Positions 1,511 through 18,451 of a stretch of 24,729 nucleotides of DNA are shown piece by piece; positions within the stretch are counted from its first letter, which is position 1; the number at the start of each line of letters is the position of its first letter. The position numbers and the translations under genes were made by a program. The notes below the pieces were generated by a model. It did no database searches and was not told where the DNA came from. It worked only from the letters and a program-made list of their open reading frames with translations. The DNA is from a virus, in the IMG/VR virus record IMGVR_UViG_3300030380_004143, positions 1 through 24,729 of that record. One strand, given 5' to 3'.

Positions 1511-1547
1511 GGTGTCATCAGTGGAAGATGTGAAGAGTAAAGTTGAA

Positions 1548-2681
1548 GGTATGACGGTCTTCAACACTGAACAAGTTAATACTAAAAAGCAACCGATGTT
1601 TTTCGGTAAACCTCTGGGTGTCCAGAGATACGATTCATACAAATATCCAATCTTTGATAAACTCACCACACAACAATTAGGATACTTCTGGAGACCTGAG
1701 GAGGTTTCTTTGCAGAAGGATCGTGGTGACTATCAATTACTTCGCCCGGAACAAAAGCATATCTATACTTCTAACCTCAAGTATCAGATTATGCTTGATT
1801 CTATTCAGGGTCGTGGTCCTGGTATGGCATTCATCCCATACTGCTCTCTGCCTGAATTAGAAGCGTGTATGGAAGTCTGGGGATTCATGGAAATGATCCA
1901 TAGTCGCTCCTACACTTACATCATCAAGAACGTCTATGCAGACCCCTCAGAGGTCTTTGATAAGATTGTCACTGATGATCGCATCCTGGAACGTGCTGCA
2001 AGCGTTACAGGGGCATATGATGACTTTATTAATAGTGCTCAGAGTTGGGGCAATGGAAATATGTGGCGAGAGGATTTTCGTCAATCACCATCCTCACAAT
2101 GGGAAATCAAAGAGGTCAAGAGAAAACTTTATAGGGCAGTTGCAAATGTCAATATCCTGGAAGGAATTCGGTTTTATGTTTCTTTTGCTTGCAGCTTTGC
2201 TTTTGGTGAACTTAAACTCATGGAAGGTTCAGCAAAAATTATCTCCCTTATTGCCAGGGACGAGAACCAACATCTCGCCATCACCCAAAACATTTTGAAC
2301 AAGTGGAAGCAAGGTGATGATCCTGAAATGAAGCAAATCATGAAGGAAGAAGAGGAGTGGACTTACAAGCAGTTTGATCTTGCTGTCAATGAAGAAAAGC
2401 GTTGGGCAGACTATCTGTTTAAAGATGGGTCTATGATTGGTCTGAATGATAAACTTCTACAGCAGTATGTTGAATGGGTTGCTAATCGTCGCCTGAAAGC
2501 ATTAGGTCTTAAACCACAATATGATATTGCTGCTAGCAATAACCCACTGCCCTGGACACAGCATTGGATCTCTTCTAAGGGTCTTCAGGTGGCACCACAG
2601 GAGACTGAAGTAGAGTCTTATGTTGTTGGTGGTATTAAGCAAGATGTGAAAAAGGACACATTCAGTGGTTTCCAACTCTGA
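1548..2681 (+). CDS. nrdB: Ribonucleoside-diphosphate reductase class Ia, beta subunit
   Basis: This is the small subunit, which carries the di-iron centre and tyrosyl radical used by NrdA. The protein reads clearly as NrdB: QPMFFGKPLGVQRYD, FWRPEEV, then EMIHSRSY, which supplies two iron ligands (Glu, His) and the radical tyrosine, then IRFYVSFACSFAFGE and LIARDENQH with the remaining Glu/His ligands. It ends DTFSGFQL, like the E. coli C-terminal tail that docks on NrdA. From the ATG at 1548 it is 377 residues, close to the usual 376. An alternative GTG at 1491 sits 4 bases after a strong GAGGAGGGA site and would add 19 residues and overlap nrdA by 20 bases. I prefer 1548 because homology begins at MTVFNTEQ, but the ribosome site makes 1491 a real option. 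Confidence 0.95.
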   Translation, partial: GMTVFNTEQVNTKKQPMFFGKPLGVQRYDSYKYPIFDKLTTQQLGYFWRPEEVSLQKDRGDYQLLRPEQKHIYTSNLKYQIMLDSIQGRGPGMAFIPYCSLPELEACMEVWGFMEMIHSRSYTYIIKNVYADPSEVFDKIVTDDRILERAASVTGAYDDFINSAQSWGNGNMWREDFRQSPSSQWEIKEVKRKLYRAVANVNILEGIRFYVSFACSFAFGELKLMEGSAKIISLIARDENQHLAITQNILNKWKQGDDPEMKQIMKEEEEWTYKQFDLAVNEEKRWADYLFKDGSMIGLNDKLLQQYVEWVANRRLKALGLKPQYDIAASNNPLPWTQHWISSKGLQVAPQETEVESYVVGGIKQDVKKDTFSGFQL

Positions 2682-4382: not shown

Positions 4383-4538
4383 ATGCATCCCGACGAACTT
4401 GCAAACTGGGAAAAAATTAAAGAAGTTTTTGAAGAAAACGGAACAACCGATAACTTCTTTTATAAAAGAGCATGTGCTATAGTAGGTGGGTTACCGGATC
4501 CTATGAGTAACCTACCTAATGTCACACAGGATGGATGA
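4383..4538 (+). CDS. Small protein of unknown function (51 residues)
   Basis: The reading frame encodes 51 residues starting MHPDELANWEKIKEVFEENG and ending NLPNVTQDG. The MHPDEL...WEKIK start followed by FYKRAC is a pattern I associate with small conserved cyanophage proteins; no function is known. The protein is acidic at its N-terminal half, probably helical, and lacks membrane segments. It lies 30 bases after the zinc-ribbon gene, and its stop overlaps the next gene in the sequence ATGGATGA, so translation is likely coupled. Confidence 0.7.
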   Translation: MHPDELANWEKIKEVFEENGTTDNFFYKRACAIVGGLPDPMSNLPNVTQDG

Positions 4539-4713
4539 AATCAAACCTGAGCACTACGTTACTGAAAAACAGTGCCAGGAAATGATAGATAAAGCAATTG
4601 ACAAACACAACAAAACTGCTACAATTATAAGTGCGATCTTAGGATCCATTGTCTTGGGATTCTATTCGCATGGTTTGTTTGCCTTGGTTGGTAATGGAAA
4701 TCTACACGGTTGA
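4531..4713 (+). CDS. Small single-pass membrane protein
   Basis: This is a 60-residue protein beginning MDEIKPEHYVTEKQCQ, with a charged N-terminal half (residues 1-29) and one hydrophobic stretch, about TIISAILGSIVLGFYSHG (31-48), that should span a membrane. The start at 4531 overlaps the preceding stop by 8 bases and matches the N-terminus I recall for relatives in T4-like cyanophages. An ATG at 4519 would add four residues and cannot be excluded. The charged half is probably cytoplasmic if the usual positive-inside rule applies. Function is unknown. The 3' end overlaps the Phd-like gene by 20 bases. Confidence 0.7.
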   Translation: MDEIKPEHYVTEKQCQEMIDKAIDKHNKTATIISAILGSIVLGFYSHGLFALVGNGNLHG

Positions 4714-4846
4714 AGAGTTTCAAGAACGCTGGGATGAAATGATCACCCGTGTAGAAAATGGTGAACACATTGGTATTACTAATGGAAAAAACACTGCAGT
4801 TATGATGCCTGCAGATGATCTTGAGGGACTGTCGCATATTGGTTAA
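4694..4846 (+). CDS. Short Phd/YefM antitoxin-like protein whose 3' end overlaps a tRNA gene
   Basis: The protein has 50 residues. Its layout, YTVEEFQERWDEMITRVENG (4-23), then HIGITNGKNTAVMMPADD (25-42), is that of the N-terminal domain of Phd/YefM antitoxins: a helix ending in R-V-E-x-G, then two short strands ending in a V-x-x-P-x-D type turn. Full antitoxins are about 75-90 residues and carry a C-terminal toxin-binding tail. Here the stop codon comes at residue 51, and the last seven codons plus stop (4825-4846) are also the 5' arm and D loop of the Ile tRNA. No toxin gene is adjacent. It may act as a small DNA-binding regulator or decoy antitoxin; that is inference. Similar short proteins occur in T4-like cyanophages. 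Confidence 0.72.
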   Translation: MEIYTVEEFQERWDEMITRVENGEHIGITNGKNTAVMMPADDLEGLSHIG

Positions 4847-4899
4847 TGCGCTCTGCTTATAACGGAGTCAACTGGGTTCAATTCCCAGCAGTCCTACCA
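4825..4899 (+). tRNA. tRNA-Ile-like (anticodon TAT), CCA encoded
   Basis: Acceptor GGGACTG (4825-4831) pairs with CAGTCCT (4889-4895; first pair G-T). The D arm is GCAT/ATGC with GG in its loop, the anticodon arm is CTCTG-CTTATAA-CGGAG, and the T arm is CTGGG-TTCAATT-CCCAG. The discriminator is A and the genome encodes the 3' CCA at 4897-4899, the only one of the five tRNAs to do so. TAT should read AUA, a job bacteria usually give to a modified CAT tRNA. Its 5' 22 bases are also coding sequence of the Phd-like gene. Confidence 0.88.
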
Positions 4900-4972
4900 G
4901 GGGGCTTAGCAATCTGGTGAATGCAGCAAACTCATAATTTGCCTAAGGCGAGTTCGATCCTCGCAGCCCCTA
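4900..4972 (+). tRNA. tRNA-Met-like (anticodon CAT)
   Basis: Acceptor GGGGGCT (4900-4906) pairs with AGCCCCT (4965-4971; first pair G-T). The anticodon arm is GCAAA-CTCATAA-TTTGC with CAT, and the T arm is GCGAG-TTCGATC-CTCGC. The D stem has three good pairs. The gene begins at the very next base after the CCA of the Ile tRNA. CAT could mean elongator Met or lysidine-modified Ile; the sequence alone does not decide. Confidence 0.9.
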
Positions 4973-5739: not shown

Positions 5740-6786
5740 ATGTCTGAATATACAAAAACCGCACTGGTCCTCGGTGCGGGTGGTTTCATCGGAAGTCACA
5801 TGGTCAAAAGACTCCGCGAAGAAGGTTATTGGGTTCGTGGAGTGGACCTCAAACAACCAGAGTTTTCCTCTACCAGAGCAAATGAGTTTGTTCTTGGTGA
5901 CCTGAGGGACACTAGGTTTGTTCAACGGTGCGTTCGCTTCACCGGATATCTTGGTAATTTCTACAAAGATATTGCAGATAAGTTCGCAGAACCGTTTGAC
6001 GAGATCTATCAGTTCGCTGCTGATATGGGTGGTGCAGGTTTTGTTTTCACTGGTGAGAACGATGCTGACATCATGCACAACTCTGTGTCTATCAACTTGA
6101 ATGTTCTTGAGGAACAGCGTAAGTTGAACGAGAGGACAGGAGTTAATAGAACAAAGATTTTTTATTCTGGATCTGCTTGCATGTATCCAGAGCACAACCA
6201 ACTTGACCCGGATAATCCAGACTGTCGTGAAGAGTCTGCATATCCTGCTAACCCGGACTCTGAATATGGATGGGAAAAACTCTTCAGTGAACGTCTCTAC
6301 CTTGCTTACAACAGGAACCATGGCATTTCTGTTCGTGTTGCTCGCTACCATAACATCTTTGGACCCGAAGGGACCTGGGAGGGTGGAAGAGAGAAAGCTC
6401 CAGCTGCAATCTGCCGTAAAGTCGCTGAACTCCCGGCGCTTGGTGGAACCATCGAGGTGTGGGGAGACGGCTTACAGACTCGTTCCTTCTTGTTCATTGA
6501 TGAATGCATTGAAGCGACTCGAAGACTGATGGACTCCGACTTCCTTGGACCTGTAAATATTGGTTCAGAGGAGATGGTGACTATCAATCAACTAGTAGAT
6601 ACTGCCGCTAAGGTTGCTGGAAAGACAGTAGAGAAGAACCATATCGATGGTCCTCTTGGTGTTCGTGGTCGAAACTCTAACAACGATCTCATCCGTGAGA
6701 AACTTGGTTGGGACTACTCTCAAACACTTGAAGAGGGTATTAGAAAGACATACACTTGGATTGCTAAGCAGGTTGCTAACCGATGA
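5740..6786 (+). CDS. GDP-mannose 3,5-epimerase-like enzyme
   Basis: This 348-residue extended short-chain dehydrogenase most likely converts GDP-D-mannose to GDP-L-galactose (and GDP-L-gulose). The N-terminal NAD site is GAGGFIG (12-18). Sequence blocks match plant GDP-mannose 3,5-epimerase rather than generic epimerases: AADMGGAGF (93-101), SGSACMYPE (143-151), YGWEK (176-180), HNIFGPEGTWEGGREKAPAA (204-223), WGDGLQTRSFLFIDEC (241-256) and GPLGVRGRNSNNDLI (304-318). The expected catalytic residues are present: Cys147, the Tyr176/Lys180 pair, and Lys218 or 219 in GREKAPAA. A slightly longer stretch near residues 61-86 differs from the plant enzymes. It is the first gene of the cassette, 22 bases after the -10 box, with no clear ribosome binding site; it overlaps the next gene by four bases. 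Confidence in the family is high; substrate is inferred from motifs. Confidence 0.85.
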   Translation: MSEYTKTALVLGAGGFIGSHMVKRLREEGYWVRGVDLKQPEFSSTRANEFVLGDLRDTRFVQRCVRFTGYLGNFYKDIADKFAEPFDEIYQFAADMGGAGFVFTGENDADIMHNSVSINLNVLEEQRKLNERTGVNRTKIFYSGSACMYPEHNQLDPDNPDCREESAYPANPDSEYGWEKLFSERLYLAYNRNHGISVRVARYHNIFGPEGTWEGGREKAPAAICRKVAELPALGGTIEVWGDGLQTRSFLFIDECIEATRRLMDSDFLGPVNIGSEEMVTINQLVDTAAKVAGKTVEKNHIDGPLGVRGRNSNNDLIREKLGWDYSQTLEEGIRKTYTWIAKQVANR

Positions 6787-7637
6787 TTATTTCAGTATTA
6801 GGTTCTAGTGGTCAGATAGGTGCTTATCTGACTGAGTATCTTCGTGGCAAAGGTCATGAAGTCATTGAGATTGATAAAAACTTAGGTCCTGAGCATAATC
6901 TCACTACTATTCCCAATGAATATGTTGAGATTCAAATTAAACGCTCTGACTTTGTATTTGTCCTAGCATTTGATGTTGGTGGTTCTAGATATCTCAAGAA
7001 GTATCAACACACATTCGACTTTGTGAATAACAATACTCGAATGATGGCAAACGTATTCACGATGCTTGAGAAGCACAAGAAGCGTTTTGTCTTTGCATCA
7101 TCTCAGATGAGTAACATGAGTTACTCTCCTTATGGTGTGCTGAAGCGCGTGGGTGAACTTTACACTTCTACCCTGAAAGGACTGACTGTTAAGTTCTGGA
7201 ATGTCTATGGTATTGAAAAAGACATGGACAAAGCACACGTCATCACCGACTTCATCCGTAAAGGGTTTGAAGAGAAGCAATTTGATATGCTGACTGATGG
7301 CACTGAAGAGCGTCAGTTCCTCTACGCTGAAGACTGCTGTGAAGCGTTAGAGGCAGTGATGGAGAACTACACGGACTTCAAACCTGAAGATCCTCTTCAC
7401 ATCACCTCATTCCGCTCTGAAACGATTAGAGAGGTTGCAAACATCATTCAAGGGTGTTTCGCAATGGAGGGAATGTATGACGTTAAAATTAACTCTGGAC
7501 TCGCTAAAGATAGTGTTCAGATGGACAAAAGAAATGCTCCAGACACTTTTATTCTTGACTGGTGGATCCCTAAAACTAATATCCAAGATGGTATTAGACA
7601 AGTATTCAATGAAATGAAAAAGAACTATGGCTACTAA
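6783..7637 (+). CDS. NAD(P)-dependent sugar epimerase/dehydratase-type protein
   Basis: This is a 284-residue short-chain dehydrogenase-type enzyme acting on a nucleotide sugar. The dinucleotide-binding loop is GSSGQIG (7-13), the serine-containing strand is ASSQMS (105-110), and the catalytic pair is YGVLK (117-121). A FWNVYG stretch after it fits the usual substrate-side V-x-G region, followed by an EERQFLYAED segment (about residues 176-185) like the R-x-F-x-x-x-x-D region of epimerases. It is shorter than the 310-350 residues of typical UDP-sugar epimerases, so it may be a reductase or a 3,5-epimerase/4-reductase rather than a GalE enzyme. It follows the GDP-mannose 3,5-epimerase by ATGA overlap, which makes a GDP-hexose substrate plausible. 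Substrate unproven. Confidence 0.82.
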   Translation: MIISVLGSSGQIGAYLTEYLRGKGHEVIEIDKNLGPEHNLTTIPNEYVEIQIKRSDFVFVLAFDVGGSRYLKKYQHTFDFVNNNTRMMANVFTMLEKHKKRFVFASSQMSNMSYSPYGVLKRVGELYTSTLKGLTVKFWNVYGIEKDMDKAHVITDFIRKGFEEKQFDMLTDGTEERQFLYAEDCCEALEAVMENYTDFKPEDPLHITSFRSETIREVANIIQGCFAMEGMYDVKINSGLAKDSVQMDKRNAPDTFILDWWIPKTNIQDGIRQVFNEMKKNYGY

Positions 7638-8424
7638 TCTCACTGAAATCAGAAACTTTATCAACGAACCACATTGTGATCTTGGTGTGAACGCTTGGGT
7701 ACTTGCTGAGTTGGTAAAAACATTCAAAGACGCACGTTTCTTGGATCTTGGTGTCCGTCTTGGAGCATCATCCGCCATCTTGTCTATTGATGCTGATGAT
7801 AATAATAACCAAGTATGTGGTTGCGACCTCATGTTTGATGGTTTTCAACGTAATGGTGCTCGTTTTGTAAAACCAAACTACATGTGCTATCAGGCAGATA
7901 GTGTAACTCTTGGTAAGAACTGGGATGAAGATCCTTTTGATATCATCTTTGTTGATACTATTCATACCCGTGAGCAGGTTCTTGCTGAACTTTATTACTG
8001 GAGCGATCATATCAAAGAGAATGGATATTTTATCTTCCATGACTGCCATTGGGTAGGTGCTGGTGGTGAAGATAATGTCGTCTCTGAAGACACCTACGGT
8101 GATACCATCGGGGGTAAACTTTGGAAGCGTCCTGATGTTGCAGTCACTGACTTCTTCGGACTTCCTAAGAGCGTTAGAGAGTTGGAAGACTATGAGGATG
8201 AAAACATTAAGGTTGATCACTATCAACCTAGTTACGGTATGACTTTTGTTCAGGTCAAAAACCTTGAAGCTATTGAACAGTTCAAGAAAAATATTGACTG
8301 GTCTGAAGTTTTTGAGACTCGTAACTGGTTGAATGACCTGCACTTCAACCCTAAGAATCCTAACTTTGTTGACTGGAACCAGGATATTGCTAATATTGAG
8401 AACGAACTTGTTATTACCCCATGA
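7627..8424 (+). CDS. Class I SAM-dependent methyltransferase (cephalosporin-hydroxylase/Methyltransf_24 type)
   Basis: The 265-residue protein has a Rossmann methyltransferase core: FLDLGVRLGASSAIL (38-52) as the SAM-binding loop, an acidic strand end CDLMF (66-70), DIIFVDTIHTREQV (105-118), and ENGYFIFHDCHW (131-142). The D-T-x-H and H-D-C pairs resemble those of metal-assisted sugar O-methyltransferases and the cephalosporin hydroxylase-like group. It probably methylates a sugar hydroxyl on a nucleotide sugar or glycan. It overlaps the upstream dehydrogenase by 11 bases and the downstream glycosyltransferase by four. The sugar and the position methylated cannot be told. The C-terminal 70 residues are acidic and unassigned. 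Confidence 0.78.
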   Translation: MATNLTEIRNFINEPHCDLGVNAWVLAELVKTFKDARFLDLGVRLGASSAILSIDADDNNNQVCGCDLMFDGFQRNGARFVKPNYMCYQADSVTLGKNWDEDPFDIIFVDTIHTREQVLAELYYWSDHIKENGYFIFHDCHWVGAGGEDNVVSEDTYGDTIGGKLWKRPDVAVTDFFGLPKSVRELEDYEDENIKVDHYQPSYGMTFVQVKNLEAIEQFKKNIDWSEVFETRNWLNDLHFNPKNPNFVDWNQDIANIENELVITP

Positions 8425-9251
8425 CGTTTGAGGTTTCCCATTGGAGCGGCAGACTTGGCAACAACATTCAACAGGTTGCCAACTGCCTTATGGCTGCTGA
8501 ACAATATAAGTCAGTTTTTAGACAGAAACTTGACCATCATATTATTTCCAACTATGACATAGACTTCCAACAAATGTCTCATACCTCTCAGTGGGCAGGT
8601 AAAGGAAGATATTATGCTTGGGAGGGTATTGTTCATTGTGAAAGGGGTGAAGTCGAAGGAGGAAATGAGACTGGTGTAGATAGAGACTTTATCTATGCTA
8701 ATATGCGTCGTATTTGTAAGAAATATGTTGCACCTTTTCTAAAAATTCCACGTAAAGAAGCACTTGATGATGACACTATCGTCATGCATCTTCGCAGCGG
8801 TGACAACTATCACCGTGTATTTGACCCTCCGACTAACTATGTTCCAAACCCTCTCATCTTTTATCTTAACTTGATAGAGAGTTTTGACAGGTGTATTCTT
8901 ATTACAGAACCTGATGATAAGAACCCTATCGTTCATGAACTTCGTAAACTTGATAAGGTTCAGATACAGTCATCCTCAGTAGAAGAGGACTTTGCAACAT
9001 TGATGTCTGCTAAAAACCTTGCGTTGTCTGGAGTTGGAACATTTGCCATGGCAGCAGCATTGTGTTCTAGTAACATCAAGAATTTGTTCACGACAGATCT
9101 GTTGTTGACTGAGCACCTAAATTATACTATGCTGTTTAATACAGATGTAGAAGTTCATGTTATGGAACTAGGTGATGAATACATCCCTGTTTATCCTTGC
9201 AGTTGGGCTAACACTGAAGAGCAGAGACAATTTATTCTAGATTATAGATGA
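8421..9251 (+). CDS. Fucosyltransferase-like glycosyltransferase (GT11-related)
   Basis: This 276-residue protein looks like a GDP-sugar-dependent glycosyltransferase of the alpha-1,2/alpha-1,6-fucosyltransferase superfamily. It has GRLGNNIQQVAN (10-21) in place of the usual G-x-x-GNQ-x-F, and VMHLRSGDNY (121-130), the H-x-R-x-G-D donor-site motif. Further on come an EEDFATLMSAKNLALSGVG stretch and PCSW, as in this fold. It is more divergent than the other three family members in the cassette, so placement in GT11 rather than a neighbouring family is tentative. The position next to two nucleotide-sugar enzymes fits transfer of a product of this pathway. No signal peptide or membrane segment is seen, so it should act in the cytoplasm. 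Confidence 0.7.
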   Translation: MTFEVSHWSGRLGNNIQQVANCLMAAEQYKSVFRQKLDHHIISNYDIDFQQMSHTSQWAGKGRYYAWEGIVHCERGEVEGGNETGVDRDFIYANMRRICKKYVAPFLKIPRKEALDDDTIVMHLRSGDNYHRVFDPPTNYVPNPLIFYLNLIESFDRCILITEPDDKNPIVHELRKLDKVQIQSSSVEEDFATLMSAKNLALSGVGTFAMAAALCSSNIKNLFTTDLLLTEHLNYTMLFNTDVEVHVMELGDEYIPVYPCSWANTEEQRQFILDYR

Positions 9252-10237
9252 AAATCTTCGTAACCGGGTGTGCTGGTTTGCTTGGTTCAAACTATGCCCG
9301 TCATCTTCTTGCTTCGGGGCATGAAGTCATAGGTATTGATGATCTCTCTGGAGGGTACAAAGCATTTGTACCCAAAGGGGAGAAGTTTACGTTTGTAAAA
9401 CTAAACTTAGAGAGGAGGAAAAAAGTTGCTGAACTTTTTGAGGAGCATAATCCTGATGTCCTCCTTCATTTCGCGGCGTATGCGGCTGAGGGACTTTCTC
9501 CTTTTATTCGTAATTACAATTATCGTAATAATCTTATCGTTTCCGCTAATCTGATCAATGAATGCATCACCCACGGAACGAAAGTTATCTTCACTTCTTC
9601 CATGGCTGTCTATGGGGAACAGACGCCCCCATTTACAGAAGATAAACGCCCGCAACCTGTTGATCCATATGGTATTGCAAAATACGCAGTAGAGTGTGAC
9701 CTTAAACTTGCTCATGAGCAGTTTGGACTGCGATACAATATCGTCCGTCCTCACAACGTCTTAGGCATCTATCAGAACATCTGGGATAAGTATCGTAATG
9801 TTATTGGTATTTTCATCCGAAAGGCATTGAATGGTGTGCCTATCCTTGTATATGGTGACGGAGAACAGACTCGTGCTTTCTCTGACATCCAATATTACAT
9901 GGAACCGTTTGATAAACTCCTTACTGACTTTGATGGTGAGACGTTCAACATCGGTGCTGACAAATATTTTACTCTAAATGAAGTTGCAGAGACGGTTCAA
10001 ACTATTGCTGCTAAGTATGGTTATGAAGTTCCTATCGAGCACGGTGAACCACGTCATGAAGTCAAACATGCTTTCTGTGATCACACAAAAGCAAAGACAA
10101 TGTTGAACTTTGAGGATAAAACAAACCTTCAGGAGTTGGTTGAAAGTATGTTTGTTTGGGCGATGAAGCAACCAAATAGGAAGGTTAAGAAAATGGAATA
10201 TGAAGTGACTAAAGACATCTATGATTATTGGAAATGA
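9248..10237 (+). CDS. UDP-glucose 4-epimerase-type NAD-dependent sugar epimerase
   Basis: This is a 329-residue extended short-chain dehydrogenase. The NAD loop is GCAGLLG (7-13), followed by IDDLSGGY (30-37), typical of GalE-like enzymes. The active site strand is FTSSMAVYGE (115-124) and the catalytic pair Y141/K145 sits in PYGIAKYAVE. Further GalE-type signatures are VRPHNVLG, a DGEQTRAFSDI stretch and FNIGADKYFTLNEV. It lacks nothing I would expect for activity. It probably interconverts C4 epimers of a UDP-hexose or a related sugar, to feed the glycosyltransferases in the cassette. It overlaps its neighbours by four bases on both sides. The exact sugar, and whether the donor is UDP or GDP linked, is not readable from sequence. 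Confidence 0.85.
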   Translation: MKIFVTGCAGLLGSNYARHLLASGHEVIGIDDLSGGYKAFVPKGEKFTFVKLNLERRKKVAELFEEHNPDVLLHFAAYAAEGLSPFIRNYNYRNNLIVSANLINECITHGTKVIFTSSMAVYGEQTPPFTEDKRPQPVDPYGIAKYAVECDLKLAHEQFGLRYNIVRPHNVLGIYQNIWDKYRNVIGIFIRKALNGVPILVYGDGEQTRAFSDIQYYMEPFDKLLTDFDGETFNIGADKYFTLNEVAETVQTIAAKYGYEVPIEHGEPRHEVKHAFCDHTKAKTMLNFEDKTNLQELVESMFVWAMKQPNRKVKKMEYEVTKDIYDYWK

Positions 10238-10929
10238 CTGACTTAGAAGCGTTGGAGGGTCAGTATCCCACTGGTTCTGAAAGGTATTTTGTTGAAAAGC
10301 ATGATAGACTGAGACATAAGTTTCCAGGTTCAGAAGACATTATTGAGAACCACTCTCAGTCAATGCAGGACCTCTTTGTTCTTTCTGTGCTTGATGGAAA
10401 GAAGAATGGAGTCTATATTGAAGTAGGAGCAGATAGACCAAGAGTTATTAACAACACTTGGTTGCTTGAATCAATGTATGACTGGATGGGAGTATCGTTT
10501 GAAATTGATCCTGTGAAGGTTGAATATTTCAATACCATTCGGAGAAACAAGTGTATCTGCGAAGATGCAACTGCTTTTGACTACAAGTTTCTTTTTCAAG
10601 AGAGAAACTACCCTAAACAAATAGACTATTTGCAGTTGGACTGTGACCCTCCACAGGTCACTCTTGCCTGTCTTAAGCAACTTCCTTTAGAGGACTATCG
10701 TTTTTCTGTTATTACTTTTGAAACGGATCTCTACGCAGGTGGTCACTCTGTTCAAAAAGAGCAATGGGAGATCCTTATGTCACTTGGATATAAGAGAGTT
10801 GCCAAGAATGTATGTAATGAAGGTAACCCTTATGAAGACTGGTGGATTGACCCACTTGTCGTTCCTGAAGAGAGTTACAAACCCTTCATGATTGACGACG
10901 TAGAATTTAGTAAAATTATTTTAGACTGA
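10234..10929 (+). CDS. FkbM-family methyltransferase
   Basis: This 231-residue protein resembles the FkbM (Methyltransf_21) family, which methylates sugar or polyketide hydroxyls. It has SQSMQDLFVL (41-50) ahead of a glycine-rich SAM loop VYIEVGADRPRVINNTWLLE (60-79), an acidic end SFEIDP (88-93) for the ribose, and then IDYLQLDCDPP, equivalent to the family's D-x-E-G region but with D-C-D-P-P. The ATG at 10234 overlaps the previous stop in ATGA; two codons further upstream a TTG is in frame but less likely. It stands directly before a second FkbM-type gene, sharing one base (TGATG). The two differ enough in sequence to have separate targets. Confidence 0.78.
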   Translation: MTDLEALEGQYPTGSERYFVEKHDRLRHKFPGSEDIIENHSQSMQDLFVLSVLDGKKNGVYIEVGADRPRVINNTWLLESMYDWMGVSFEIDPVKVEYFNTIRRNKCICEDATAFDYKFLFQERNYPKQIDYLQLDCDPPQVTLACLKQLPLEDYRFSVITFETDLYAGGHSVQKEQWEILMSLGYKRVAKNVCNEGNPYEDWWIDPLVVPEESYKPFMIDDVEFSKIILD

Positions 10930-11531
10930 TGCTATTAGACTTTAACGCACTTAAAGCACAACACAACGTTAACATCAAGGGTGTCATCCACGTTGGCGGT
11001 CATATTGGTGATGAACTTGAAGAATATCAAGGTATTGAGAACATTATCATCTTTGAACCACAGAAGCATTGTTATGATCAACTTGTAGCAAAAGCAGAGC
11101 GTATTGGTTTGGGTGGTAAGTTTGTAAATTGTGCCCTTGGCAACTTCATCGGTGAAGCAGAAATTACTTCTGACCCAACTGGACTGACGGGTTCACTTTT
11201 GGAACCTGGACTTGTGGTTGATTATCCTGATATCGTGTTCAGTGAGAAGTTTATGGTTGATGTGTCTAAACTGGATGAAGAGATTCCAGCAGACCACCCA
11301 TACAACTTTCTGAATATGGATGTTCAGGGTTATGAGTTGGAGGTTTTAAAGGGTGGCACAAATACACTTGAGAAGATTGACTACGTAATGACTGAAGTCA
11401 ACCGTGCTGAAGTGTATAAAAAGTGTGCTATGATAGAGGAACTCTCCGAGTTCCTGGCACAGTATAACTTTACTAAAGTTGCTGAAGCATGGCACGGAGA
11501 CTGGGGTGATGCATTTTACATTAAAGGTTGA
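10929..11531 (+). CDS. FkbM-family methyltransferase (second copy)
   Basis: This is a compact 200-residue FkbM-family protein. The SAM loop is KGVIHVGGHIGDELEEY (17-33), the ribose-contact strand is IIIFEPQ (39-45), and the NMDVQGYELEVLKGG stretch is the family's D-x-x-G-x-E-x-x-V-L-x-G motif. A TEVNRAEVY stretch follows, as in many members from glycan clusters. It should O-methylate a sugar residue. Its start shares one base with the stop of the preceding FkbM gene, so the two are coupled. Similarity to that neighbour is limited to the family motifs, so this does not look like a recent duplication. No membrane segment is seen. Confidence 0.82.
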   Translation: MLLDFNALKAQHNVNIKGVIHVGGHIGDELEEYQGIENIIIFEPQKHCYDQLVAKAERIGLGGKFVNCALGNFIGEAEITSDPTGLTGSLLEPGLVVDYPDIVFSEKFMVDVSKLDEEIPADHPYNFLNMDVQGYELEVLKGGTNTLEKIDYVMTEVNRAEVYKKCAMIEELSEFLAQYNFTKVAEAWHGDWGDAFYIKG

Positions 11532-11533
11532 TA

Positions 11534-12391
11534 ATGAAAGTATTTGACTCGTTTATTTTTTTCAACGAACTTGAGTTGCTTGAGATGCGTCTTAACATCT
11601 TGGGTGACGTTGTTGACAAGTTTGTTCTCACAGAATCTCCCTATACTGTCAGTGGTAATGAAAAACCACTGTACTATGAGGAGAATAAGGACAAGTTTGC
11701 TAAGTGGCACGACAAGATTGTCCATAATATTACAGAGGAGATCCCTAATGACTTCTCTCATATGATGGAAAAGAGTAAGTTTCACATCGGTTACAGCGAA
11801 CTTGACCCTTACGGCACTCCGTTTATCAACCTTCCTATCCGTTTTCAAAGAGCAGTTTTCAATAGAAACAATAGTTGCTTTGGTATTGAAAAGGCAGGAG
11901 CAGAAGATGGTGACCTTGTGATGACAAGTGATGCTGATGAAATTATCAACCCACTTGTGCTTCAGGATCTGTCCTGGTTTGATCCTAACAACCACTACAC
12001 CACACTATGTAATGCTTATTATTACAAACTGAACTTCTTATATCAGGATGACTGGATGGGAACCAGACTCTGCACCTGGAAACATCTGAAAGGCACCACT
12101 ATCGACCAGCATCGACAAGATCATGCTAATGCTCACAAGATTGCGGACGGTGGTTGGCATTTTAGTTTCCTGGGCAATGCAGAAAATTTCAAGTTGAAAC
12201 TGGCATCATACGAACACACAGAGAATAACATTGCGTCTAACACTGACAACGCAGAAGAAAAGATAGAACAAGGACTGGATCCTATTGGTAGAGGAATGAC
12301 TTACCGAGCAGTCCCTATTGACGAAAGTTATCCAGAATATATTCAAAACAACCAGGAGAAGTACAAAGAATTTATTAAATCATGGAACTAA
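11534..12391 (+). CDS. GT17-family glycosyltransferase (N-acetylglucosaminyltransferase III-like)
   Basis: The 285-residue protein opens with MKVFDSFIFFNELELLEMRL, then VVDKFVLTESPYTVSGNEKP (26-45), which is the characteristic start of glycosyltransferase family 17. That family includes eukaryotic beta-1,4-mannosyl-glycoprotein N-acetylglucosaminyltransferase and many bacterial and phage relatives. A metal/nucleotide-binding motif appears as MTSDADEIINP (130-140). A long aromatic stretch with NAYYYKLNF, and then GGWHFSFLGN, matches the family C-terminal half. The donor is probably a UDP-sugar. The start at 11534 lies two bases after the previous stop, the only gap in the cassette. An in-frame TTG two codons earlier overlaps the previous stop and cannot be excluded. 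Confidence 0.82.
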   Translation: MKVFDSFIFFNELELLEMRLNILGDVVDKFVLTESPYTVSGNEKPLYYEENKDKFAKWHDKIVHNITEEIPNDFSHMMEKSKFHIGYSELDPYGTPFINLPIRFQRAVFNRNNSCFGIEKAGAEDGDLVMTSDADEIINPLVLQDLSWFDPNNHYTTLCNAYYYKLNFLYQDDWMGTRLCTWKHLKGTTIDQHRQDHANAHKIADGGWHFSFLGNAENFKLKLASYEHTENNIASNTDNAEEKIEQGLDPIGRGMTYRAVPIDESYPEYIQNNQEKYKEFIKSWN

Positions 12392-13314
12392 TTGAAGGAG
12401 TTGAACTGTCTAGACTTTGTGACTACTCGTTTGGTGACCAAGCGGGACAGTGGAGTAACATATATTCTCATTTTATGAAGGATGCAAGTTTTTTAAATGT
12501 AGAGTTTGCATCTAAAGTATTTGATATAAAGCAAAGTAGAGACTATATGACTCTGTTTATTGATAATATTCGCTTATATAAGAGAGATATTGCTGAAGTA
12601 AAAGATAGTGATAAACCCATTGTGGATGCCATGATGGAAACAAGTGACCTTCTAAAGTTGTGTGGTCAGTTTCCCGAGATGAAGTTTATCATTTTCACAA
12701 ACCTGGAGGATACACCACTTGACGAGTACATTTTCGATTGTATACCAGATAATGTTCTGCGTGTGTGTGCTGCTAATTCTGTTGTGTGGAATGAAAAAGT
12801 AATTCCCGCACCATATGGTGTTCAAAGACGAATGAGTTTGAATGATGATAGAATAGAAGTTCTTCAAAAATACATGAATAAGGAGGAGAAGAAAGTCCCT
12901 AGATCGTTTAGACTATTGTATGTTGGCATTAATGAAAATTCACACGAAGAAAGAAAGGGTCTCACTCAAAAGTTTGTTGAAGAACCTTGGGCAACTGTAG
13001 AGACTGGAAGAGTTGACTATGAAACTTTTCTTGATAGAATGTGGAGATGTAAGTTTGTCTTATGCCCTAGGGGAAATGCCATTGACTGTCATAGAAACTG
13101 GGAGGCAGTCTACATGCGTCGGGTTCCTGTGATGAAAAGAGACCCATATCTGCAAGAGTTATACAAAAATTACTCAGTTTTATGGGTGGATGACTATTCA
13201 GAAGTAACAGAACAACTTCTCCTTGATAACAACCAACTATTTCTTGACGCACAGGAAGCAGATCTTTCCTCACTTGACCTTAATAACTTCTTTGATAAAT
13301 GGAAAAGACCTTAG
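12382..13314 (+). CDS. Exostosin-like glycosyltransferase domain protein
   Basis: This 310-residue protein has no clear motif in its N-terminal 170 residues, but its C-terminal part carries FVLCPRGNAIDCHRNWEAV (225-243) followed by YMRRVPV. That is the pattern of the GT-B donor-binding half of exostosin/GT47-like transferases: F-x-L-C-P-x-G-x-x-x-D-x-x-R-x-W-E-A. The LLYVGINENSHEERKG stretch (178-193) fits the start of that half-domain. It would transfer a sugar from a nucleotide donor, but which sugar is not apparent. It overlaps the GT17 gene by 10 bases and the next gene by 16. The rest of the protein may be an acceptor-binding half that is too diverged to recognise. Confidence 0.68.
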   Translation: MELIEGVELSRLCDYSFGDQAGQWSNIYSHFMKDASFLNVEFASKVFDIKQSRDYMTLFIDNIRLYKRDIAEVKDSDKPIVDAMMETSDLLKLCGQFPEMKFIIFTNLEDTPLDEYIFDCIPDNVLRVCAANSVVWNEKVIPAPYGVQRRMSLNDDRIEVLQKYMNKEEKKVPRSFRLLYVGINENSHEERKGLTQKFVEEPWATVETGRVDYETFLDRMWRCKFVLCPRGNAIDCHRNWEAVYMRRVPVMKRDPYLQELYKNYSVLWVDDYSEVTEQLLLDNNQLFLDAQEADLSSLDLNNFFDKWKRP

Positions 13315-14000
13315 TAGTATCAAACCACAACTCTTGTCTTGAGTGGTTGACCACCACATATGACTATGGGTTTTCTCCACAAAACACTATCATTTATGAT
13401 AGGAGTGATAAAGAGAAAGACTGGAGTCACTTGGGTGAAAGCATCCGTTCACCTAATGTTGGTGAGAATATCTATGATATTATGCGATATATTGTAGAAC
13501 ACTATGAAACTCTCCCCGATGTTTGTGTATTCATCAAGGGAAACATGTTCCAACGTCCTGAAGAAAGGGGTGGTGCAGAGTATTATACAACCCGTGAGAG
13601 GTTTTATCGTGCTTTAAATGCCGAATATTTCTTGCCTATTGAACGTTTTCATGAGTCAACTGCTTTTGTGGTCAATGGCGGTGGTTTCATTCAACCTACC
13701 TGGGAAGCAGTAAGTAACCAGACTGTTTACACCAGACACTTCTCCACTTTTCCACAAATGTTGGACAAGTTGTTTTACAACGCACCTAACTTTCCTTATA
13801 ATAGGTTCGCACCTGGTGGGAACTATGTTGTCCCTAGGGCAAACATTCACAAGTATAGTAAACAGTTTTATGAGAAACTTCAGTTCTATGTTTCTTATGA
13901 ACCACCGGAAGAATTTCAAAGCACATCAGGCGAATCTTACTTGATTGAGAGACTTCTTTATATGATGTGGACGGAAGACCTGGAGGAGAGAAATGTATAG
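13299..14000 (+). CDS. DUF3431-like protein, possible glycosyltransferase
   Basis: This 233-residue protein resembles the DUF3431 family, seen in fungi and in some bacterial and viral glycan clusters. Visible features are LVVSNHNSCLEWL (5-17), IIYDRSDKEKDW (31-42), NVGENIYDIMRYIVEHYETL (53-72), then PDVCVFIKGN, and later RFAPGGNYVVPRANIHKYSK. The layout, a strand ending in YD(R/K) followed by N-x-G-x-x-x-Y-D-x-x-x-Y-I, is typical of the family, whose reaction is not known to me. The context argues for a role in sugar transfer. It overlaps the gene before by 16 bases and the next by eight. Family assignment is from memory of its motifs, so moderate confidence. Confidence 0.62.
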   Translation: MEKTLVVSNHNSCLEWLTTTYDYGFSPQNTIIYDRSDKEKDWSHLGESIRSPNVGENIYDIMRYIVEHYETLPDVCVFIKGNMFQRPEERGGAEYYTTRERFYRALNAEYFLPIERFHESTAFVVNGGGFIQPTWEAVSNQTVYTRHFSTFPQMLDKLFYNAPNFPYNRFAPGGNYVVPRANIHKYSKQFYEKLQFYVSYEPPEEFQSTSGESYLIERLLYMMWTEDLEERNV

Positions 14001-14787
14001 CGTTTACGGTGCTGGATACATTGGTGGTAGATATTGTGAGATGTATCCAGATGACACGATAATTATCCCTAGAGAGCAAAGAGTTCCTGAAACCCAGGAA
14101 CTTTTGTATTTTATATCTACGATTGACAACAGTAATATTCGCACCGATATTACCCTAGATGTTGAGACAAATCTCCATATTCTGTGTGAGGTCTTGGATT
14201 ATTGTCGGAGTGCTGACCGCGTTTTCAATTTTATTTCTTCTTGGTTCGTCTACGGAGATTGTGATCTCCCTGCCAAAGAGGATGCGACATGTAATCCAAG
14301 AGGGTTTTACTCCATCACAAAGAAGTGTGCAGAAGATCTTATCATTGACTTCTGTAAAACCTATGGAATGAAGTATAGAATACTTCGTATGCCTAATGTT
14401 GTTGGTGGTTTTGACCCTAAGGCATCACCGAAGAAGAATGCTATATCCTACTTGATCAGTCTTCTCAAGAAGGGTGAAGATATTACTTTAGTAAATGATG
14501 GTCAGGTTTATCGAGATGTGATGCACGTTGATGACGTTTGTAGAGGCATTAATACAGTAGTAAATAGGGGAGAACTCAATACCATCTACAACATCGGAAG
14601 TGGACAAACGTTTTCTCTGGGTGGTATAATGAGTACGGCAAAGCATTTTCTAAAGTCAGAGTCAAAAATTCTCTCAAAACCTGGATATAGTCAGGATATG
14701 TTGCTGGATTGTAGTAAGGTGAGAGCATTAGGTTTTAGTCCCAAGATTAGTATTACTGAAATTATCAGAGAGTTATGTACCAACTGA
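13993..14787 (+). CDS. NAD(P)-dependent sugar reductase/epimerase (abequose/paratose synthase-like)
   Basis: This 264-residue protein is a small short-chain dehydrogenase-type enzyme. The nucleotide loop is GAGYIGG (6-12), the active-site strand is FNFISSWFVYGD (78-89), the catalytic pair is FYSITKK (Y106, K110), and LRMPNVVGGFDP and VMHVDDVCRGI follow as in epimerase-family enzymes. It is short (264 residues against 300-340), like CDP-abequose/paratose synthases and related 4-keto-sugar reductases. It directly precedes, and overlaps by 13 bases, the 3-dehydrase at 14775. In O-antigen clusters a 3-dehydrase and a 4-ketoreductase work together to make 3,6-dideoxyhexoses, so the pair probably acts in sequence. 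The substrate remains an inference. Confidence 0.78.
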   Translation: MYSVYGAGYIGGRYCEMYPDDTIIIPREQRVPETQELLYFISTIDNSNIRTDITLDVETNLHILCEVLDYCRSADRVFNFISSWFVYGDCDLPAKEDATCNPRGFYSITKKCAEDLIIDFCKTYGMKYRILRMPNVVGGFDPKASPKKNAISYLISLLKKGEDITLVNDGQVYRDVMHVDDVCRGINTVVNRGELNTIYNIGSGQTFSLGGIMSTAKHFLKSESKILSKPGYSQDMLLDCSKVRALGFSPKISITEIIRELCTN

Positions 14788-16070
14788 TTGATACATTTAT
14801 TGAGTCCGCAAAGGAGATGGATGATGACATCTTTCCCTTTATGGCAAACAGGGGTTGGGAAGAAGGTAAACCTGTTTATTATTCTGGTCCTTATTGGGAT
14901 GACAATGAGGCAAGAGAACTTATATACTCTGTGATGAAAGGTAAGTGGTTGTCTTCTGGTGAGAAGGTAAACCGTTTTGAGCATGAGTTTTCAAGAAAGT
15001 TTGGATTCTCTCATTCTGTAATGGTGAACTCTGGGTCATCTGCCAACCTGGTGATGATCGCTGCGTTAAAGAAATATTTCAACTGGGCAGACGGTGATGA
15101 AATTATTGTATGCGCTTGTGGTTTTGCGACGACTGTAGCACCAATCGTACAGGCAGGTCTGAAACCTGTGTTTGTTGACATCAACTGGGGCGACCTTAAC
15201 TGGGACTTGGAGCAGGTCGAGGCAAAGATTACTGAAAAGACAAGAGCAGTATTTTCCTCTCCTGTTTTGGGTAATGCCTATGATATGGATCAACTTTATG
15301 ACATTCTTGACAGGCATCAACTGGAACTTATCGCTGACAACTGTGATAGTTTGGGCAGTAAGTATGAAGGTCACTACCTTACAGACCGTGCTGTAGCAGC
15401 ATCTTGCTCCTTCTATCCTGCTCACCACCTCTGTACTATCGAGGGTGGCATGGTTTCATCTAATAACAAAGCAATCATTGACCTTGCACGTAGTTTTGCT
15501 TGGTGGGGACGTGGTTGTTATTGTGTAGGACAACAAAACTTGCTGTCTAACGGTGTATGTGGACGACGCTTTGATAGGTGGTTGGAAAAGTATCCTGACA
15601 TCGTTGACCATAAGTATGTCTTCGGGAATATGGGATATAATCTTAAACCTCTTGACCTTCAGGGTGCAGTTGGTTCAGTTCAACTGTTGAAGTTTGAGGA
15701 AATTCATGATAAACGTCGCAAAAATAAGTGGGCAATTCATCAGATTGTTGAGCGTATTCCTGGTATCCGTGTGATGAGAGAGATGCCAAATGCAGAGACA
15801 AGTTGGTTTGGTGTTCCTATTCTCTGTGATAATAAGAAGTTAAAGCATTCTCTTGTCAAACACTTTGAAGATAATAAAGTGCAGACAAGAAACTATTTTG
15901 CTGGTAATATTCTTCTTCATCCTGGATATTCTTACCTTGATGATGCTAATAAATATCCCAACGCGAACCAAGTATTAGACCTAGTATTCTTCCTTGGGTG
16001 TTCGCCAACAATCACTGACAAGATGATTGAGTACATTGCAAAAGTGGCATCACAATATGTTAGCGACTGA
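14775..16070 (+). CDS. PLP-dependent sugar 3-dehydrase, ColD/RfbH type
   Basis: The 431-residue protein belongs to the DegT/DnrJ/EryC1/StrS fold (PLP-dependent). It shows VNSGSSANLVMIAAL (84-98), the IADNCDSLGS loop (186-195) and a GYNLKPLDLQGAVG segment. The usual Schiff-base lysine is absent: the site reads CSFYPAHHLCTIEGG (211-225), with histidines 217/218. That is the mark of GDP-4-keto-6-deoxymannose 3-dehydrase (ColD) and CDP-4-keto-6-deoxyglucose 3-dehydrase (RfbH), which remove the 3-hydroxyl. SWFG and TRNYFAGN also fit. RfbH has an iron-sulfur cluster with C-x-C-x7-C; here GRGCYC (C248, C250) and C262 give C-x-C-x11-C. Simple aminotransfer is therefore unlikely. The start overlaps the reductase gene; an internal ATG at 14817 is an alternative. 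Confidence 0.83.
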   Translation: MYQLIDTFIESAKEMDDDIFPFMANRGWEEGKPVYYSGPYWDDNEARELIYSVMKGKWLSSGEKVNRFEHEFSRKFGFSHSVMVNSGSSANLVMIAALKKYFNWADGDEIIVCACGFATTVAPIVQAGLKPVFVDINWGDLNWDLEQVEAKITEKTRAVFSSPVLGNAYDMDQLYDILDRHQLELIADNCDSLGSKYEGHYLTDRAVAASCSFYPAHHLCTIEGGMVSSNNKAIIDLARSFAWWGRGCYCVGQQNLLSNGVCGRRFDRWLEKYPDIVDHKYVFGNMGYNLKPLDLQGAVGSVQLLKFEEIHDKRRKNKWAIHQIVERIPGIRVMREMPNAETSWFGVPILCDNKKLKHSLVKHFEDNKVQTRNYFAGNILLHPGYSYLDDANKYPNANQVLDLVFFLGCSPTITDKMIEYIAKVASQYVSD

Positions 16071-16947
16071 ATTTCTTCATGGACAAGGCATGGGCAATCA
16101 ACTGTTTGCCTATGTCACGACCAGAGTTCTTGCGCTTAGACTTGGATATGACTTTGGTATCAAAGGACTTCAAAGCGCAGGGGACTCAAGAGTAAACAAG
16201 AAAGGGTTCTACTTTATGAACCTGGACTATGGTAAGGAAGTACCAGATGATCTCACCAGATATGATGAATATCGTCACGCTCTAGAGACAGATACGTGGC
16301 TTAGGACTGATATTAGACTGACTGATAAGGGTCTTCTGTCTATACCTGACAATCATATTATTTACGGTAACTTTCAGTCAGAGGACTATTTCTATCCTGA
16401 AATAGATGTGGTCAAAGATTGGTTGAGAGTTCGTATTATGTACGAACATGATGACACAAACGGAAAGAACATCTGTGTTCTTAATTTCCGTGGCGGAGAT
16501 ATGATTGGTAATGCTGGAGCATTTGTTCCACCATCATATTGGCATAATGCTATGCAGCATATGTCAGAATACAACCCTAACATGGAATATTGCATTGTAA
16601 CTGATGATGTTAAAACTGCTAATAGGATGCTCCCTGACATCCCTGCATATCATGTTGACGTGGCATGGGATTATGTCGCTGTCAAGAATGCAAGGAATGT
16701 TATATGTACTACCTCCACCTTCTCTTGTTTCCCTTTATGGACATCCAAAAATTTAGAGATGTGCATTGCACCCAAGTATTGGTTCCATCACAACCTATCA
16801 CAAGGATGGTGGAGTCTTGGATGCAGTATTTACAGTTATCCGACATATTACATGGATAGGGACGGTAAACTGTTTACACCCGATGAATGTAGGGTAGAAT
16901 GGGACCAATATAAGGAGAGTTCTAACATTTACAATGGGGACCTATGA
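16057..16947 (+). CDS. GT11-like glycosyltransferase, divergent
   Basis: This 296-residue protein is related to alpha-1,2-fucosyltransferases (GT11). GQGMGNQLFAYVTTRVLALR (9-28) corresponds to the G-x-G-N-Q-x-F-x-Y start of the family. YGNFQSEDYF (103-112) matches the G-Y-F-Q-S-x-x-Y-F block, and VLNFRGGDMIG (141-151) takes the place of H-V-R-R-G-D, so the donor-site histidine is Asn and the second Arg is Gly. A C-terminal TSTFSCFPLW segment matches S-T-F-S-W-W. The donor may differ from GDP-L-fucose. It starts inside the end of the 3-dehydrase gene (14-base overlap), where the sequence AATATGTTAGCG also occurs at a second GT11 gene start. A longer in-frame reading from 16027 lies in the 3-dehydrase and is less likely. 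Confidence 0.75.
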   Translation: MLATEFLHGQGMGNQLFAYVTTRVLALRLGYDFGIKGLQSAGDSRVNKKGFYFMNLDYGKEVPDDLTRYDEYRHALETDTWLRTDIRLTDKGLLSIPDNHIIYGNFQSEDYFYPEIDVVKDWLRVRIMYEHDDTNGKNICVLNFRGGDMIGNAGAFVPPSYWHNAMQHMSEYNPNMEYCIVTDDVKTANRMLPDIPAYHVDVAWDYVAVKNARNVICTTSTFSCFPLWTSKNLEMCIAPKYWFHHNLSQGWWSLGCSIYSYPTYYMDRDGKLFTPDECRVEWDQYKESSNIYNGDL

Positions 16948-17654
16948 TGACCAAGATTGACCTAAAAGATGTTACATTAATATCTGTTGACACAACCGAT
17001 GACTTAACTGGAACTCTTAATGGTGTTTTTACTAGTATGTCTGGTATCAACTATGGTGCTGTCAAACTTGTGACTACTCAAGAGCAAATTGATAAGAACC
17101 CACATTTTTCTGATGAGGGCATCACCGCTGAAGTGTCTGTAGCACCCATCAAAAACTACAATGACTATAACCACTACGTCATCTATCATCTTCACAACCA
17201 CGTTGATACCTCTCATTGTCTCTTAGTACAACCAGATGGGTTTGTATTGTTCCCTGACAAGTGGGATGACTCTTGGATGCAATATGACTATATCGGTGCT
17301 CCATGGGCGCATGTAGAAGACGCATATATTGACCCTTTTGGCAACCATCACAGAGTTGGCAATGGTGGTTTCTCTTTCCGAAGCAAGAAGTTTCTTGAGG
17401 TTCCCACAAAAGTCGAAGTCCCATGGGAAACAAACAATAGTGACTTCTACTGGATGCCCGAAGGTGTGGTAAACTATCATGAGGATGGTAACGTTTGCGT
17501 TCACAACCGTCACATCTTTGTAGAACAGGGGTGTAAGTATGCTCCCGTCGATGTCGCCGTCAGGTTCTCACAAGAAACCAGAGTTCCTGAAGCAGAGGGG
17601 GTGACACCATTTGGTTTCCATTATAGACTGCCACCAGGAGTTGAACTTTCATGA
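16944..17654 (+). CDS. DUF5672-type putative glycosyltransferase
   Basis: This 236-residue protein carries the pattern of the DUF5672 family, found next to sugar-transfer genes: HCLLVQPDGFVLFPDKWDD (91-109), then MQYDYIGAPW (112-121), RVGNGGFSFRSKKFLE (137-152), and a HEDGNVCVHNRHIFVEQG stretch followed by APVDVAVRFS and PFGFH. The QPDG and GGFSFR segments could hold the donor- and acceptor-binding sites of a GT-A-like fold, and the H-E-D near residue 180 could be catalytic; that is inference. The start at 16944 lies in ATGATGA with the previous stop, so ATG at 16947 is also possible. It overlaps the following GT11 gene by four bases. No membrane anchor is seen. Confidence 0.8.
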   Translation: MMTKIDLKDVTLISVDTTDDLTGTLNGVFTSMSGINYGAVKLVTTQEQIDKNPHFSDEGITAEVSVAPIKNYNDYNHYVIYHLHNHVDTSHCLLVQPDGFVLFPDKWDDSWMQYDYIGAPWAHVEDAYIDPFGNHHRVGNGGFSFRSKKFLEVPTKVEVPWETNNSDFYWMPEGVVNYHEDGNVCVHNRHIFVEQGCKYAPVDVAVRFSQETRVPEAEGVTPFGFHYRLPPGVELS

Positions 17655-18451
17655 TCGGACACAATCACATTGGTAAGAACGGACGGTTTGGTAACCAGAT
17701 GTTCCAGTATGCTGCCACTCGTGGCATCGCACACTCGCATGGTGTTGACTTCATCATTCCTGATGGTCCTAGAACTGATGAGGAGTTCACGGATGAGGAG
17801 GAGCAGCATAAGCTTTTTATGGCATTTGATATGGAGGCTGCCAAAAATATTGGTTTTCTAGATGCACCCTATCGTCAGGAGGCATCGTTTCGTTTTGATG
17901 CAGACCTTTTTGAGAACTGTGATGACAACGTAAACCTTTACGGATATTTTCAGTCAGAGAATTGGTTCGCTCATATTGAAGACGAAATTCGACAGGACTT
18001 TACTTTCCGAGATGAAGTAACCGAAAAATGTCATAATGTTCTAGATCAAGTTGTGGGTGATGGAGACTTTATCACACTACATGTAAGACGAACCGACCAC
18101 CTTATCAAACCTACATATCACCCAGTCCTGCCAATCAGTTATTATGAAGAAGCACTTGGACGACTGCCGAAGGACCTCCCTGTGGTTGTACTCACGGATG
18201 ATCCATCGTGGGCATTCGGACACTCATTCTTTGAATCTGATCGTTTCTTTGTCTCTGAGAGTGACAACATTCACGATATGTGCCTCATGTCAATGTCCCA
18301 GTATAACATCATCGCAAACTCAACCTTCTCTTGGTGGGGAGCATGGCTCGCAGGACATGATAATGTGATTGCACCCAAACTCTGGTTTGGTCCTGATGGT
18401 GAGGACCCTACCGACATTTATATTGACCGCTGGGAGTATCTTGATGTCTGA
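17651..18451 (+). CDS. GT11 alpha-1,2-fucosyltransferase family protein
   Basis: This 266-residue protein is a clear GT11 member. It starts with NGRFGNQMFQYAATRGIA (10-27), carries LYGYFQSENWF (96-106) and LHVRRTDH (143-150), and later SQYNIIANSTFSWWGAWLAG. The last is the acceptor-side block of the family. In the donor motif H-V-R-R-G-D the glycine is Thr148, unusual for the family. GT11 enzymes usually transfer L-fucose from GDP-L-fucose to a galactose O2. The protein acts in the cytoplasm as no signal peptide or membrane segment is seen. It shares its domain with the genes at 16057 and 19991 but is not a recent copy of either. It overlaps the DUF5672 gene by four bases and the next gene by eight. 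Confidence 0.87.
   Translation: MIGHNHIGKNGRFGNQMFQYAATRGIAHSHGVDFIIPDGPRTDEEFTDEEEQHKLFMAFDMEAAKNIGFLDAPYRQEASFRFDADLFENCDDNVNLYGYFQSENWFAHIEDEIRQDFTFRDEVTEKCHNVLDQVVGDGDFITLHVRRTDHLIKPTYHPVLPISYYEEALGRLPKDLPVVVLTDDPSWAFGHSFFESDRFFVSESDNIHDMCLMSMSQYNIIANSTFSWWGAWLAGHDNVIAPKLWFGPDGEDPTDIYIDRWEYLDV

Follow-up and report, generated by a model that had tools for sequence, protein, structure and literature searches.

The coding sequence of a small cyanophage protein with a predicted Phd/YefM fold ends inside the tRNA-Ile gene that follows it on the same strand. This arrangement is probably the outcome of a net deletion that removed a conserved C-terminal tail and let translation run into the tRNA, leaving a selected N-terminal domain that may act through contacts with other proteins. 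The gene, referred to here as phd, lies in a stretch of 24,729 bases (the window) of an IMG/VR virus record of 28,510 bases. The window has T4-like cyanophage content, and the nearest phage records over the region are S-SM2 and Bellamy.

A Phd-like coding sequence sharing 22 nucleotides with a tRNA gene

The phd coding sequence runs on the plus strand from an ATG at 4694 to a TAA at 4844-4846 (4694..4846) and encodes a tail-less protein of 50 amino acids (MEIYTVEEFQERWDEMITRVENGEHIGITNGKNTAVMMPADDLEGLSHIG*). Codons 1-42 (4694..4819, plus strand) form the conserved Phd N-terminal or dimerisation domain of alpha-beta-beta order, as delimited by dN/dS and an AF2 model (see below), and an out-of-frame TGA at 4822..4824 on the same strand (TTGA if 4821 is included) abuts the tRNA as an apparent fossil stop codon. 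The tRNA-Ile gene was identified by ARAGORN at 4825..4899 (plus strand) with anticodon TAT (UAU) and an encoded CCA. It matches Rfam RF00005 over 4825-4896 (model positions 1-71) with 58.0 bits at a gathering score of 29, and its cloverleaf is intact in this match, with all pairs standard and none broken. A tRNA-Met (CAT; 4900..4972, plus strand, also found by ARAGORN) follows directly, an order that is kept in relatives.

The two genes share exactly 22 nt (4825..4846, plus strand), which serve phd from the last base of codon 44 to codon 50 plus the stop and serve the tRNA as acceptor 5' strand, D-stem and D-loop. The first two bases of the TAA at 4844-4846 close the D-loop, and its third, a paired base, opens the 3' D-stem strand. 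The ORF translation, ARAGORN and RF00005 thus agree with an earlier note on this DNA, which had described a Phd/YefM-like frame ending within the tRNA-Ile with 22 bases in dual use. The same same-strand overlap (-22 nt) is found at 12 or more further IMG/VR loci, ten of them from a protein scan and two from a DNA-pattern scan that is biased toward TTGAGGGACTGTCGC. In 12 homologous loci phd has the same length and the same end as in the window, and the identical geometry is therefore conserved in at least 13 loci with the window included.

Family identity and predicted fold

The sequence evidence for a Phd identity of the 50-aa protein is moderate. It matches PF02604 with E=2.4e-6 and 27.6 bits, just below the cut-off of 29.8, TIGR01552 with 18.0 bits (cut-off 20.8), and the phage family phrog_375, annotated as "Phd-like antitoxin", with E=1.8e-8. 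Identity reaches 79% to relatives in phage records and lies at 57-88% to IMG/VR relatives, and the phrog_375 relatives mostly sit ahead of tRNA-Ile/Met in a tRNA cluster, as in the window.

The AF2 model of the protein (like all models used here, a monomer) has a mean pLDDT of 86.6 and consists of a long helix (residues 6-21), two strands (26-29 and 34-37) and a short helix at residues 40-47 (ADDLEGLS), with a low mean pLDDT of 66 for residues 41-50. Its top matches by Foldseek and VIA-align are P1 Phd, YefM and RelJ, and among solved structures it best matches chains of P1 Phd and YefM (3hs2: Z 4.9, 2.2 A over 43 residues). With a full-length relative of 56 aa (L018), each of the top 23 structural matches is an antitoxin of the Phd/YefM type, and complexes of Phd with operator DNA are among them. 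The predicted structure, which corresponds to the N-terminal domain of Phd, hence bears out the Phd-like fold proposed in the earlier note. The 50-aa protein is thus a Phd/YefM-fold member of phrog_375, and it should not be labelled a demonstrated antitoxin or repressor.

Genomic neighbourhood

Directly upstream of phd lies the gene of a small predicted membrane protein (phrog_1096; 4519..4713, plus strand; homologue SSM2_183 in S-SM2), which overlaps the start of phd by 20 nt in the window. In 11 of the 13 clade members phd starts at the phrog_1096 stop as TAATG. Compared with most clade members, the window has a 4-nt deletion (in the region 4688-4713, just ahead of the phd ATG) that removes the phrog_1096 stop and creates the 20-nt overlap of the two coding sequences; none of the other 12 loci has this deletion, and an error of assembly or sequencing could explain it. 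A tRNA-Pro that lies about 20 nt upstream of phd in many relatives is absent in the overlap clade, and the 5' side of phd is compacted in this clade too. Further upstream, an ORF of 51 aa (MHPDELANWEKIKEVFEENG...) at 4383-4538 precedes phrog_1096, as it also does in L190 and L214. Beyond the tRNA cluster, positions 5740-23638 hold a long run of epimerase-like (nucleotide-sugar), glycosyltransferase-like and methyltransferase-like ORFs, as judged from the ORF sequences and the annotation of relatives.

Scans of the small neighbours of phd with Pfam, PADLOC and NCBIfam gave no match to a toxin family, as the earlier note had stated, and none is annotated in the relatives. Genome contig scans returned no close cellular homologue or partner of phd, a result that does not by itself show their absence.

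A conserved tail in the relatives of phd

The relatives of phd were surveyed in a census of the best 80 of 446 relatives in the scan, so that its counts are samples. Among the 97 distinct contexts listed, 84 are tail-bearing without overlap, 11 overlap the tRNA and 2 are tail-less without overlap (those of S-TIM5 and DSL-LC03). The tail is a conserved stretch of about 14 aa (DDELIRIYTExNNEA[SP]), present in the 84 of 97 contexts listed, whose proteins measure 53-58 aa apart from two distant longer outliers and whose genes overlap a tRNA by at most one base. All 11 overlapping contexts in the census are tail-less. The protein of the window likewise ends at residue 50 and lacks the tail of the 84 relative contexts, as had been noticed before. 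The suggestion that the tail would be longer where no tRNA follows does not hold, since the tail-bearing proteins have 53-58 aa with or without a tRNA within 60 nt downstream. The cyanophage members of phrog_375 (S-SM2 SSM2_185, S-BM3, S-TIM5 "Phd-AT", S-B43/RB11-B) resemble the window in their N-terminal domain, in being orphans and in their place in the tRNA cluster, usually with tRNA-Ile and tRNA-Met next to them, but they differ from it in carrying the tail of about 14 aa and a stop of their own ahead of the tRNA (S-TIM5 and DSL-LC03 have neither the tail nor an overlap).

Two readings of the tail were considered and dropped. A general cyanophage C-terminal tag is contradicted by the finding that only phd ends in this way among 3,987 S-SM2 ORFs, and a recognisable Doc- or YoeB-binding segment by a profile of 39 tails that scores the tails of P1 Phd and YefM at chance level (p 0.31 and 0.44). 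The same profile matches the distant phage relatives S-H9-1 (p 0.0006) and Sf-FS3 (p 0.0002).

Public annotation of this region is uneven. The phd gene is absent from some phage annotations, as at 1527-1643 (minus strand) in S-B43 (L053) and at 1501-1671 in RN05-S (L054), and the S-B43 annotation has an antisense ORF in its place. In S-SM2 (L066, NC_015279.1 100001-150000 and the rest of the record), all 11 annotated tRNAs are placed about 55 nt downstream of where ARAGORN finds them, and this shift produces false overlaps of coding sequences and tRNAs in the public record, for example of phd with tRNA-Pro. The apparent start of S-SM2 phd inside tRNA-Pro was accordingly discarded as an artefact of tRNA coordinates shifted by about +55 nt.

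Origin of the overlap

In 17 of the tail-bearing contexts listed the stop codon of phd directly abuts the tRNA-Ile, and in nine of these it is TGA. A tail-bearing example (L047) reads ...GAAGCTCCTTGA/GGGACTGTCGCC, where the slash marks the first base of the tRNA; the junction is ...CCTTGA/GGGACTG in this locus as well as in L043, L039 and L091, and ...CTTGA/GGGACTG in the window. All 13 overlap loci have the form ...[CTA]TTGA/GGGACTGTCGC, and this TTGA directly before the tRNA indicates that the old stop is still there, out of frame. A relative of 56 aa has 42 nt between the aligned Asp42 codon and the TGA, where the window has 2 nt; because the net loss, 40 nt, is not divisible by three, it shifted the frame. 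A codon tree of 54 sequences groups the overlap clade as monophyletic with a support of 0.79, which is moderate because only 42 codons are usable, and a single event would thus suffice.

The position at which phd now ends follows from the tRNA. Among the 288 distinct tRNA sequences of the phage loci collected, 76% offer a stop in the phase of phd within 30 nt, and most tRNA-Ile among them do so at nt 22. The D-loop GGTTAA (GGUUAA) of tRNA-Ile provides this in-frame stop, so that the end of phd is automatic and unsurprising. The last residues of the protein vary within the clade mainly at position 48, which is His or Pro, and it is a compensated swap in the D-stem (A12-U23 to C12-G23) that turns His 48 into Pro, which shows the ending to be set by the tRNA rather than by the protein. 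As a separate observation, the anticodon arm of the tRNA-Ile of one clade member (L006; CTGTTCCTTATAAGAGCAAG) is strongly unlike that of the others at a nearly constant acceptor and D-arm, a difference that suggests recombination within the tRNA.

Taken as a sequence of events, the ancestor would have been a phage Phd-like gene of 55-58 aa with its TGA stop directly against the tRNA-Ile. The net loss of about 40 nt would then have cost the gene its conserved 14-aa tail and left the old stop in another frame, and translation would since have run 22 nt into the tRNA to the in-frame UAA of the D-loop GGUUAA. The deletion would have been kept in a diverse clade of one marine cyanophage lineage, and its product would combine the Phd N-terminal dimerisation fold with an ending of 8 residues mostly dictated by tRNA structure, under purifying selection. 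We infer the exact ancestor and the length of the deletion from the aligned sequences.

The reverse order of events, in which insertion of the tRNA or tRNA-mediated recombination cut a longer phd gene, had been proposed in the earlier note. Of this proposal the shortening stands, given the tail of the relatives, and the tRNA as its cause does not, because the tRNA-Ile was there before and the fossil TTGA persists. An orthologous tRNA-Ile already lies 0-17 nt past the stop in most tail-bearing relatives, the old TGA survives directly before the tRNA, and tail length is independent of a downstream tRNA; the tRNA-Ile hence predates the deletion, and its insertion did not make the overlap. Some exchange of tRNAs may occur, as the tRNA-Ile bodies of the clade differ at nearly constant acceptor and D-arm, yet we consider an origin of the overlap by this route very improbable. 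Still harder to credit is the idea that phd, having lost its conserved tail and the canonical DNA-binding residues, is a decaying remnant that now drifts. Over codons 1-42, the 12 distinct sequences of the overlap clade have a mean dN of 0.065, a mean dS of 0.86 and a dN/dS of 0.076 (0.06 for the first ten sequences), and no disrupted copy occurs among the 12. Such strong purifying selection argues that the short protein is maintained and functional, and synonymous divergence this high (mean dS about 0.8-0.9) indicates that the members of the clade are not mostly recent copies, which leads us to reject drift.

Does the overlap regulate anything?

Cleavage by RNase P at 4824/4825 would separate the phd message from its stop codon, and a given transcript would then yield either a tRNA or a stop-terminated message. 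We take this competition between tRNA and protein for each transcript to be a side effect, unless RNA data should reveal regulation. An overlap of a coding sequence and a tRNA has precedent in selB and tRNA-Sec, where the tRNA is nested in selB and its maturation is predicted to cost the full-length protein (PMC8124441). In both systems a protein ORF overlaps a tRNA gene on the same strand, but in this bacterial selenocysteine gene pair the whole tRNA is nested in a C-terminal extension (with a partial overlap in Gammaproteobacteria; PMC8124441), whereas in the window, within the tRNA cluster of a phage, 22 nt are shared following the loss of a tail, with no known functional link between tRNA-Ile and the protein. 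By analogy with the logic proposed for selB/selC (PMC8124441), the overlap could itself be a regulatory device that makes maturation of tRNA-Ile and output of the phd protein mutually exclusive, and the predicted RNase P cut within codon 44, before the stop, as well as the stability of the arrangement in at least 13 loci would fit such a device. We nevertheless think it unlikely, since the stop merely abuts the tRNA in tail-bearing relatives, the overlap may simply have come with the deletion, and unprocessed transcripts may dominate phage expression.

What the protein may do

In structurally known Phd/YefM systems the toxin is neutralised by the C-terminal segment of the antitoxin, and arginines R10 and R31 of YefM are, according to a review, essential for DNA binding (PMC4803016). 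The protein of the window shares the N-terminal fold of P1 Phd and E. coli YefM, its top structural matches, but differs from both in lacking the neutralising C-terminal tail, a partner toxin gene and the DNA-binding arginines and in being strongly acidic. With arginines and tail gone and no toxin gene found next to phd, neither a classical repressor nor a classical antitoxin role is supported.

A repressor that binds an operator through a Phd DNA-binding domain kept without the toxin-binding tail had been suggested earlier, and it has some appeal because the fold matches the isolated N-terminal DNA-binding domain of P1 Phd (4zlx) as well as Phd-operator complexes and because the N-domain is the conserved part of the protein. 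The residues that would have to contact DNA nonetheless make this role unlikely. The column of YefM R10 contains no arginine among 105 cyanophage proteins (Q or E in 105/105) and that of R31 contains one (1/105), while at the positions of P1 Phd arginines 7, 30, 31 and 33 the cyanophage family mostly has an acidic or neutral residue, or a gap. The N-domain has a net charge of about -8 (range -3 to -11), against -1 in P1 Phd and -2 in E. coli YefM. DNA contact through residues other than R10 and R31 would be a way around the missing arginines, and we leave the repressor a small chance. Less probable again is direct neutralisation of a host toxin by the new helix 40-47 (ADDLEGLS) in place of the tail. 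This short helix is predicted by AF2, and the new ending extends the Pfam match from profile position 44 to 48; however, neutralisation is the task of the C-terminal segment in the structurally known systems (PMC4803016), and the last residues of the 50-aa protein are fixed by tRNA pairing, with His or Pro 48 following the D-stem swap.

Since both classical hallmarks fail and no neighbouring gene matches a toxin family, action of the dimeric N-domain on another protein is favoured, most plausibly on a host antitoxin with this fold. The 50-aa protein may thus be an accessory anti-toxin-antitoxin factor, a role that the earlier note had also considered in the form of a decoy, and would work by protein-protein contact through its dimeric domain, forming, for instance, mixed dimers with Phd/YefM-type antitoxins of the host. 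We infer this role mainly by elimination and hold it tentatively, at somewhat less than even chances. A narrower version, a pure dimerisation poison of host antitoxins that is free of both hallmarks and whose synthesis is coupled through the 22 shared nt to tRNA-Ile(UAU) maturation, with a single transcript making the tRNA or the protein but not both, strikes us as a long shot.

Solitary antitoxin genes are found in other cyanophages, with counter-defence as their proposed role (PMC9964418). Phage antitoxin mimics such as Dmd, AdfB/Gp145 and the YefM, TacA and MazE of S-CREM1 are, like phd, solitary antitoxin-like genes of lytic phages, and counter-defence has been proposed or shown for them (PMC11481870, PMC9964418). 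The mimics that have been tested bind the toxin, unlike what would be expected of the window protein, which is devoid of a toxin-binding segment.

Implications

The phd gene is a clear natural case of a coding sequence that came to end inside a tRNA, through an adjacent deletion and with the D-loop as a ready-made stop. This lineage is also a natural separation of the two parts of an orphan antitoxin of phages, as the N-domain has stayed under strong selection after loss of the tail. Tail-bearing and tail-less homologues can therefore be used as a natural pair for asking what the "Phd-like antitoxins" of cyanophages do, and the family-wide loss of arginines suggests that this label should not be taken to mean "repressor".
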